Positions 6,301-9,300 of a DNA stretch of 64,000 nt are shown one piece after another. Both the position numbers and the translations under genes were made by a program. Position 1 is the first letter of the stretch. Every line of letters starts with the position of its first letter. Source of the stretch: Bugula neritina (Eukaryota > Bryozoa > Gymnolaemata > Cheilostomatida > Bugulidae); assembly GCA_964035545.1 (NCBI GenBank), contig OZ037765.1, forward strand, positions 30,926,004 to 30,990,003. The letters are read 5' to 3'. Below the pieces are notes generated by a model. That model was given only the letters and a program-made list of their open reading frames with translations, had not been told where the DNA came from and searched no databases.

Positions 6301-9300
6301 TACATGTCACATGACGTTAGTGTCACATGACATAAGTGTTGCATAATTTCGATTTGATAAGAAAGTTTTCATGATTACATTAGAATGAATTCCAAACTAG
6401 AATATGACCAATTATAAGTTACCTTTGATTCTAAAGCAGCAACTTGGTTCTTGTTACCCTTTCTGGAGATCTCTTCCAGTTCTGCTACTCTTAGCTTCAG
6501 TTCCTTGTTCTGCTTTTCGAGGTGAGAGCGGGCAGACTCAGCTTTGTTAGACAAAGCTTTCTCATTACCCAAGTCTAATTGCATCTGGTCAACCTGAACC
6601 CCAAGTAACACTTTACCAGACACAGTCACCATTAGAAAGTGTAACACAGCAGACGACAGTAACTACTACAGACACTCTGATACAAGTCTGGTGGGCAGAC
6701 TGGTTGAGAAATGAGACTGTCGAGCAATTGCGACATAAACATCTTTTCTCCCGATTTTTGATTAAAAAAAACCTGTCTAGACTGAGTACCACACATACCT
6801 GAGCCTGCAGTTTGCGGGCCTTCTCCATGGCCAGCTCAGAGTTGCTAGCCTCCTCTTCCATCTCGTCCTCCAAGGCGTTGACTCTGGCCTCCAGTCTCTT
6901 CTTCTCGTCTAACAAACTGTTCTTAGACAGGTTGGAGGAGCTGAGCTCCTCGTTAGCTTCATCTCGTTCATTCTGAGCCACTCTCTTCCCTCTCTCAGCG
7001 GCCGCCAGCTCCTGCAAACAAGTAAACATTCGATATTCTCGTAACCGTGATAACCGGCAGAGACAGTTAGCGTGCTGATAGCACCGACTACCGGGAACTT
7101 AACCACAAACCGCAAAGTAATGCAGCAGTATAGTACTTTACCTCCTGCAGCTGAGCAAGCTCTGCCTCCAACAGTTTGTATTTCTTATCGGCATCCTTGG
7201 CAGTGTTGAGGGCGTCCTCCTTACCGGCCCGCAGTTCCTCGATCTCCGTTGTGTACTGAGTGACTATAGTCTGCATCTTCCTGTACTGCTTCTGCGCATC
7301 TTCCTTCATCTTCTGCGCGTTCTCCACGGAGGCCTCCATGTCCGCAAACTCACTCTCTATCTTCTTTTTAGCGCCAACGGCTGCAGTCTTCTGTCTCCGC
7401 TCTTCTTCCAACTCCTACATAGGATATTACATCATTAATTGACCAACAATATAATGCCAAAACAAAACAAACTACAACATAGAAACTTAAACTTCCAAAA
7501 TACAACAGAGTAATTACCGTATATAAAAACTTCCGAAAATTACACTCTAAATACTGTGTTTAGTTAAAATTAGGTAACGTACAGTTTCCAAGTCTCGCAG
7601 CTGTCTTAGAAGTCCCTTCCTAGACTCTTCAACTCCCTCGTCTTTGTTTGCCAGTTCCCTCTCCAGCTGGTTGACCTTCGCCTGAAGGTTGACCTCCAGA
7701 CGCATCTTAGAATCTTCTAGAAGCTGCAACTCATCTTCCATCTCCTCCAGCTGCTGCTTCTGCTCTTCTACCTGTGCCTCCAGAGCTCTCTTGGCCTACA
7801 GAACAGGTTGTGTCAAATATTGAACAGGTCGGCGTGTCACATTAGTAAATATTAAAGATGAAATTTGAAGTCACAGGAATAATTTCACACACAACAAAAA
7901 GATATGATGCCACAGAGTATCAATGCAGAACATGGGACACCTGTTATATAGTGAAATAGCACGCTTCATAGAGAAATATATAAAAATAAATAGAATGACA
8001 CGTTGAAACTATTCACGCCCAACTTGTTTTACAGCTGAGAAGGTAAGCTGTTGAGACAACAGGTTCCGGCAGCAGGCATACCGGGTCAGCTGGTGCAGTG
8101 AGAAGTGATGTCAACTTTTCCTCTTTAACCGAAAGGCTGTTGAATTTGCGCAACTTAGAAGACACAAAGCTGCCGTACTTTTTCTCTCGACTACTGCTGT
8201 TATATTTCCGGCCCAAAGACATTACCGACCAATAAGCTTTGTACGCTGCCTTGTTGCCATCCGACACACGCATCTCAGCCAGGGAGTCACAACTCTTCAC
8301 TAAACCGGTTGGTTCAGAAACACGAGTCGGCGAGTTTCGTCGCGTCAGGGAGCCGCCGTTCAAAGAGTCGCATCTTCTCACAAGACTGGCTTCCAGAGTT
8401 CTCTTGACTTCCTCCATGTTTGAACTGGAGCTACGTTGACGAGACATTGCTGACAGGCAGCATACAGAGCAACACTAACTGCACTCCCCTACACAGTCTC
8501 TCCGACTAATCTCCCCGAGTGGCACAACATTGTATAACGTGTCTTTCAAAGCAGCTAGCATCACAAACGTATCATCAAGCGATGAGACAAACTTCAATCA
8601 TGATAACGCAGAGAGAATAATAGAGAGCAGCAAAAAGATTTCAGTCAAGATATGGCATTCACATCAAGAGAAACTGCGCATTGTGAATATAATCGAAACA
8701 TAGGCAGTATTGCTTCACGGTAAATCACAAATAACATTGAATAAGAACATACTACATATTCATATTGTATACAAGACTGCACGTGCTTTCCTACACAATT
8801 CACGGAGCTTTGCTGATGTCTACTGTGTCTTGACTACAGCACACAGCTACTCCATCAACTATATATAAAGAATGTCCAATAGTCACCTTCTCAAGGTCAT
8901 GCACAGATTTGCCGACGTCGTCTTTACTAGACACCATCTCGTCATACTCTCTAAGTTGAGCGTTGTACTTCCTCTGTACCTCGGCCATCTGGTCTTCCAT
9001 CTCTTCAAGCTCTTTGGTTAGAGAGAGAATCTTTGTTTCCTTATCTCGAGCTTCCTTCTCTGCCGCATCTCTCTCTTCTTGTAATCTGAAGGTAAGAAGT
9101 TGATAATTACACTGTGTTGCGATTATAATACTGCAGCTTAGGAATTATCCCCTCTATACCCAGACAAAATATAATATGCCAAATAATTCTAAAGTAATTG
9201 CATTAGCTTTACAGTCGTGACTGTCAACAAATTTATAACCGATTTTTCTCTATGGACAGGCTGGAATATTTTATTTCCATAACATCACCAAATACTATAA

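Follow-up and report, generated by a model that had tools for sequence, protein, structure and literature searches.

Can a myosin II gene of the non-muscle type give rise to a rod-only protein, a design that the literature found, as far as its accessible parts go, places in muscle-type genes? This question is raised by one intron of a myosin II heavy chain gene in the bryozoan Bugula neritina (assembly GCA_964035545.1, contig OZ037765.1, positions 30,926,004 to 30,990,003; this whole stretch of 64,000 nucleotides is referred to as the window). The intron contains a 122-codon open frame that we consider likely to be a genuine alternative first exon, whose product would be a motorless co-assembly subunit of non-muscle/smooth filaments, possibly phosphorylatable. 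Support comes from the frame itself, an upstream stop, a splice donor and its phase, a gene model (P0001) from a different assembly of B. neritina, a rise in guanine plus cytosine (GC) content and a repeated motif in the encoded head.

A probable alternative first exon within the rod

The host intron comprises 1,091 bases between an exon ending VHDLEK and an exon starting AKRALE. It holds a stop-free frame of 153 codons (8474-8013) with an ATG at 8447. An earlier inspection of the DNA (the sequence-only reading) had proposed a 122-codon exon here with an upstream in-frame stop and a GTATGC donor, all of which were confirmed (ATG 8447, TAG 8477-8475, donor 8081). The features of this region are as follows, in window coordinates.

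8082..8447, minus strand: probable alternative start exon of 122 codons, coding for the head of the predicted rod-only product (from the frame and the start and junction of P0001)
8475..8477, minus strand: upstream in-frame stop TAG
8076..8081, minus strand: splice donor GTATGC, phase 0
8130..8378, minus strand: five copies of [KRS][CFY][DNG]S, candidate basophilic-kinase sites, at head residues 25, 52, 81, 90 and 101
8431..8463, minus strand: short upstream open frame of 10 codons plus stop, in a different frame from the main ATG, which it overlaps
8529..8536, minus strand: TATA-like string TATACAAT upstream of the exon, with a putative promoter role

The acceptor tgtag directly precedes 7795, and splicing to it gives a predicted protein of 570 residues (64.8 kDa), composed of 122 new residues and the 448 residues of rod and tailpiece that had been claimed. 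The rod part corresponds to positions 685-1081 of Pfam Myosin_tail_1. With an isoelectric point of 10.06 and 24 Ser, 12 Arg and 11 Lys, the head supports the proposed rod-only design with a basic, Ser-rich N-terminus.

P0001 is a GenBank gene model of the other assembly that has the same ATG and the same head-rod junction and is 95% identical over the searched part. According to the part of the source that was accessible, this assembly was annotated by AUGUSTUS with hints from a published transcriptome (PMC7576161); therefore, a transcript may underlie P0001.

In sliding windows, GC content is 0.42-0.53 over 8586-7987, compared with 0.32-0.42 upstream and 0.34 downstream. No tandem repeat was found under the exon when positions 1-30000 of the window were scanned. 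The segment 8886-7900 is single-copy, its only match being itself in a scan of the genome (215.8 Mb in 295 contigs) that skipped common words, and a mobile-element origin of the exon was rejected because of this one genome copy.

The repeat pattern of the head was picked after inspection of its sequence. Four copies fit the narrower form [RKS][CFY][DN]S, compared with a mean of 0.05 in shuffled heads, and this number was reached in 0 of 20,000 shuffles; the fifth copy has the G variant. Between the two CDSL copies all differences are synonymous, and serine is encoded by AGC in the other three copies versus TCT or TCC in the CDSL copies, which is another codon family. From general motifs, we take these to be candidate sites of basophilic kinases. 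General basophilic sites ([RK]..[ST]) are not enriched in the head (8 versus 5.6 expected, p 0.15).

No solved structure resembling the head was found up to E 10, no NCBIfam family matched it, and no Pfam match extended into it past its last residue. AlphaFold gave no confident structure for the head alone (mean predicted local distance difference test score 45.0; one sequence, weak evidence). The head is basic and probably unstructured.

Type of the host gene

The motor exons of the host gene were concatenated, with some exons missing, and used as a query. The best match was Myosin-9 (858-863 bits), followed by Myosin-10 and Myosin-11 (~840-853 bits), compared with 607 bits for scallop striated myosin. 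Because the motor favours Myosin-9, -10 and -11 over the scallop striated protein, the gene is assigned by sequence similarity to the non-muscle/smooth type, as the sequence-only reading had held. The rod part aligns with the C-terminal ends of Myosin-10, -9 and -11 at 304-329 bits and with muscle Myosin-7 at 127-128 bits, and the C-terminal coiled coil and tailpiece were found to be of the non-muscle/smooth myosin II type. The gene and the exons used by the predicted product are as follows.

3346..28297, minus strand: host gene, non-muscle/smooth-type myosin II heavy chain by similarity, from the ATG at 28297 to the stop ending at 3346
7583..7795, minus strand: rod exon joined by the head, begins AKRALE
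7142..7414, minus strand: rod exon
6799..7011, minus strand: rod exon
6423..6593, minus strand: rod exon
6147..6293, minus strand: rod exon
5683..5855, minus strand: rod exon in which the coiled coil ends
3346..3502, minus strand: terminal exon, non-helical tailpiece and stop

Window positions 5890-6160 carry a tandem array with a unit of ~34 bases that copies the end of a rod exon including its splice donor. The string AAGGAGCAG/GTGAG (the slash marks the splice boundary) occurs six times exactly in this array, which therefore offers several equivalent donors in succession. Elsewhere in the window, a 760-codon open frame on the minus strand (38239-40518) has no Pfam match at E <= 0.01, and part of a gene for an APH-family phosphotransferase lies at 46641-47114 on the minus strand.

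A search with the rod part, in which the best 7,999 candidates were scored, returned at least six proteins at E <= 1e-20. By eye, P0003 and P0006 start with rod sequence, P0002 is a piece of rod carrying intron-like inserts, and P0004 is fused to unrelated sequence; a motor domain is tabulated for P0005. Of the six proteins P0001 to P0006, P0001 alone is recorded with the Pfam family PF27605, without placement.

Coding exon or chance frame

The most serious alternative, which we consider unlikely, is that the frame arose by chance in a GC-richer part of the intron and that P0001 is an AUGUSTUS artefact splitting a long, repeat-laden gene. When the 1,091-base intron was shuffled with its dinucleotides preserved, 12 of 5,000 sequences reached at least 153 codons without a stop on the same strand, and 19 of 5,000 a run of at least 122 codons from an ATG to a phase-0 GT. 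The exon frame exceeds chance, but moderately, and it was found in one intron of a many-intron gene. What a chance frame does not account for is the coincidence of start, donor and phase with a separate, transcriptome-hinted gene model, the different serine codons of the motif repeats and the rise of GC content over the exon.

Several other observations weigh against a genuine exon. The donor had been described as exactly in phase; the geometry holds (phase 0), but its weight does not, since five of the six downstream internal rod exons have lengths divisible by 3, so a random donor would have a one-in-three chance of fitting, and the open frame contains 11 phase-0 GT sites. The synonymous codon score of the head is 6.0, between the mean of the GC-matched null (-7.7, p 0.07) and the coding expectation (28.6, P 0.004); a frame on the reverse strand reaches 6.5. 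The short upstream frame overlaps the main start, although a leader spliced at tgtcag/CAATG would remove it. The search with the 122 head residues recovered the B. neritina model with the same start and nothing beyond this species: P0001 was the one protein at E <= 1 among 558 candidates, and none of 58 pattern matches in prokaryote genomes was a relative.

The comparison between assemblies points in the same direction. Differences are seen at 6 of the 122 head residues and at 3 of 396 rod residues (residues 123-518; residues 519-520, where the models diverge, were set aside). The 3' extension of P0001, which is probably non-coding, departs from the window sequence at 4 of 91 residues. The head thus appears to change at about the rate of probably non-coding sequence; there is no sign of purifying selection on it, and the pair is too close to show any. 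All six head changes fall outside residues 44-105 (Fisher p 0.012), a pattern chosen post hoc that we do not rely on. In addition, the last 91 residues of P0001 are encoded at 5285-5013 (minus strand) and not in the tailpiece exon 3502-3346. This 3' end is either an alternative end or a misprediction, and looks mispredicted; P0001 may therefore be a mis-split gene, being a single model with a doubtful last exon.

Two further alternatives retain the frame and change its use. It is improbable that a small independent gene is nested in the intron and reads past 8082 to the stop at 8013, unjoined to the rod. The frame is indeed open up to 8013, but P0001 splices the head to the rod; the codon-usage score of the 22 codons that follow the donor is slightly negative, in a stretch too short to weigh. 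Very improbable is the inclusion of a poison or truncating exon between VHDLEK and AKRALE that reduces myosin output, for although the pyrimidine-rich, acceptor-like tgtcag/CAATG lies just upstream and inclusion would bring a stop after 23 codons, such an exon does not explain why there are 122 open codons with a repeated motif, and P0001 uses the exon as a start.

Catchin-like exons in striated-type genes of the same genome

A scan of the genome for the tail family identified the window gene, two striated-type genes (C2 at ~9.19 Mb and C1, the contig that also carries the window, at ~10.73 Mb) and one gene on C7 that we read as a putative paramyosin. In each striated-type gene, the intron preceding the exon that begins ARIEELEEELEAERAARSK holds a long open frame.

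L022:6258-6614: catchin-like first exon of a striated-type gene, 119 codons from the ATG
L023:5644-6069: catchin-like first exon of a striated-type gene, 142 codons from the ATG

In both, an upstream stop lies in frame, the donor follows Leu-Glu and the acceptor is in phase. Compared with each other, the heads align (identity at 31 of 80 residues, E 5e-10 for that comparison) and are, by this sequence evidence, homologous. Their junction lies near position 270 of the tail model; therefore, ~830 rod residues remain, as reported for catchin. Because a search with the L023 head found nothing at E <= 0.1 among 105 candidates (the L022 head was not searched), the label catchin-like rests on position and design. 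With two such exons, this genome appears to use the rod-only design, which counts in favour of the exon in the non-muscle gene.

These exons also bear on the codon test. The catchin-like heads score -11.2 and -10.1, compared with coding expectations of 31.9 and 20.6, and in each exon another frame beats the head frame. Since they score worse still than the non-muscle head, the test is uninformative here, and such heads need not show the codon bias of their gene.

The non-muscle head did not align with either catchin-like head at E <= 100, and its junction, at tail-model position 685, lies ~415 positions further along the rod. It would therefore belong to a separate, shorter rod-only product, and its distinctness from the striated-type cases is supported by the different intron and the unaligned heads. 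As far as tested, the non-muscle head does not appear to be catchin by descent; both follow one design, in which a long frame in an intron has an ATG, a stop upstream of it and a phase-0 donor to the rod.

In the L023 sequence, at ~6720-7040, two similar short exon-like stretches were noticed by eye, starting ADKDRQQ and VDKEKNA, which look like mutually exclusive rod exons. Separately, three contigs (C90, C114 and C115) have myosin motor matches with many TAG and TAA codons and no TGA, which would fit a cobiont that reads TAA and TAG as residues.

Comparison with known rod-only myosins

Catchin was reportedly described by Yamada et al. in 2000, and the Drosophila myosin rod protein by Standiford et al. 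in 1997. A 2008 entry in the reference list of PMC5963113 is said to concern a scallop cDNA that covers the tail region of a non-muscle myosin II. In myorod, the head is reported to be phosphorylated by myosin light chain kinase at Thr141.

The sources on catchin, or myorod, in the parts available, describe a rod-only protein of molluscan catch muscle whose unique N-terminal domain is encoded by an alternative exon (PMC12040844, PMC4410989, PMC5963113, PMC3912159), with 156 unique and 830 rod residues from a muscle Mhc gene (PMC12040844). When phosphorylated, the head raises the ATPase activity of the myosin with which it is co-assembled; peptides of the unphosphorylated head bundle actin (PMC4410989, PMC12040844). 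On what these parts report, catchin and the predicted product share a unique N-terminal exon, an in-phase donor to the rod and candidate phosphorylation sites in the head. They differ in that the catchin gene is of the striated/muscle type and not of the non-muscle/smooth type, in the intron used and in the length of rod (830 versus 448 residues). The sequence-only reading had spoken of the same architecture; this stands for the design and is loose otherwise, because the rod part is about half of that in catchin. The comparison of heads covered the catchin-like heads of the same genome, with the molluscan heads outside it.

The Drosophila rod protein likewise uses an alternative start within a myosin II gene to make a motorless rod, and its N-termini are reported in the portion seen to be non-conserved even among close relatives (PMC3912159); therefore, weak conservation alone would not refute a rod-only product. 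It starts at the first exon past the motor and neck of muscle Mhc, whereas the start described here, in a gene of the non-muscle type, lies late in the rod, of which only the last part is included. Two other motorless myosin II tails are mentioned in the accessible text, both muscle-type: Lottia Mhc8, a duplicated rod-only gene (PMC3912159), and a truncated MYH16, a suspected pseudogene (PMC13249394). As described there, neither arises from an alternative first exon in a gene of the non-muscle type. Among the matches listed in our literature searches, with subscription papers outside their coverage, there was no rod-only non-muscle product, and the literature searched held no co-mention of bryozoans with myorod or catchin. 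From sequence, a rod-only product of a non-muscle gene is probably encoded here, with a design already described for muscle genes.

Proposed function and implications

If the exon is an alternative first exon, it would be transcribed from an internal promoter or reached via an untranslated leader. The product would be a 65-kDa isoform with the 122-residue basic head and the C-terminal 448 residues of the heavy chain, lacking the motor, the neck and most of the rod and keeping the assembly end. It would presumably dimerise as a coiled coil and, through the shared tail end, may co-assemble with full-length myosin and lower motor density. By general coiled-coil geometry, ~400 helical residues place a head ~60 nm from the C-terminus, and this head would lie nearer the filament core than the myosin heads. 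The basic, Ser-rich heads may bind actin, filament or membrane surfaces, and basophilic kinases could phosphorylate the repeated motifs and end this binding. Such a switch is plausible by analogy with molluscan myorod because the head has basic Ser motifs.

Non-muscle myosin filaments are seen as assemblies of motor-bearing heavy chains, regulated by light chains and tail phosphorylation. If the proposal is true, the gene itself would supply, in the form of a motorless product, a further means of adjusting motor density and of linking filaments to other structures, and rod-only products would have arisen outside muscle genes. The striated-type exons are a lead that the catchin design extends into bryozoans and thus beyond molluscs, in which myorod is, by the part of the source available, restricted to catch muscle (PMC4410989). 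We give about even chances to the broader picture that B. neritina has three rod-only myosins, two catchin-like ones from striated-type genes and a third, independently evolved in a non-muscle gene, which is short and has a head with repeated kinase targets. If so, phosphorylation of the third product would tune both the number of motors and the surfaces engaged by a cytoplasmic or smooth-muscle filament.
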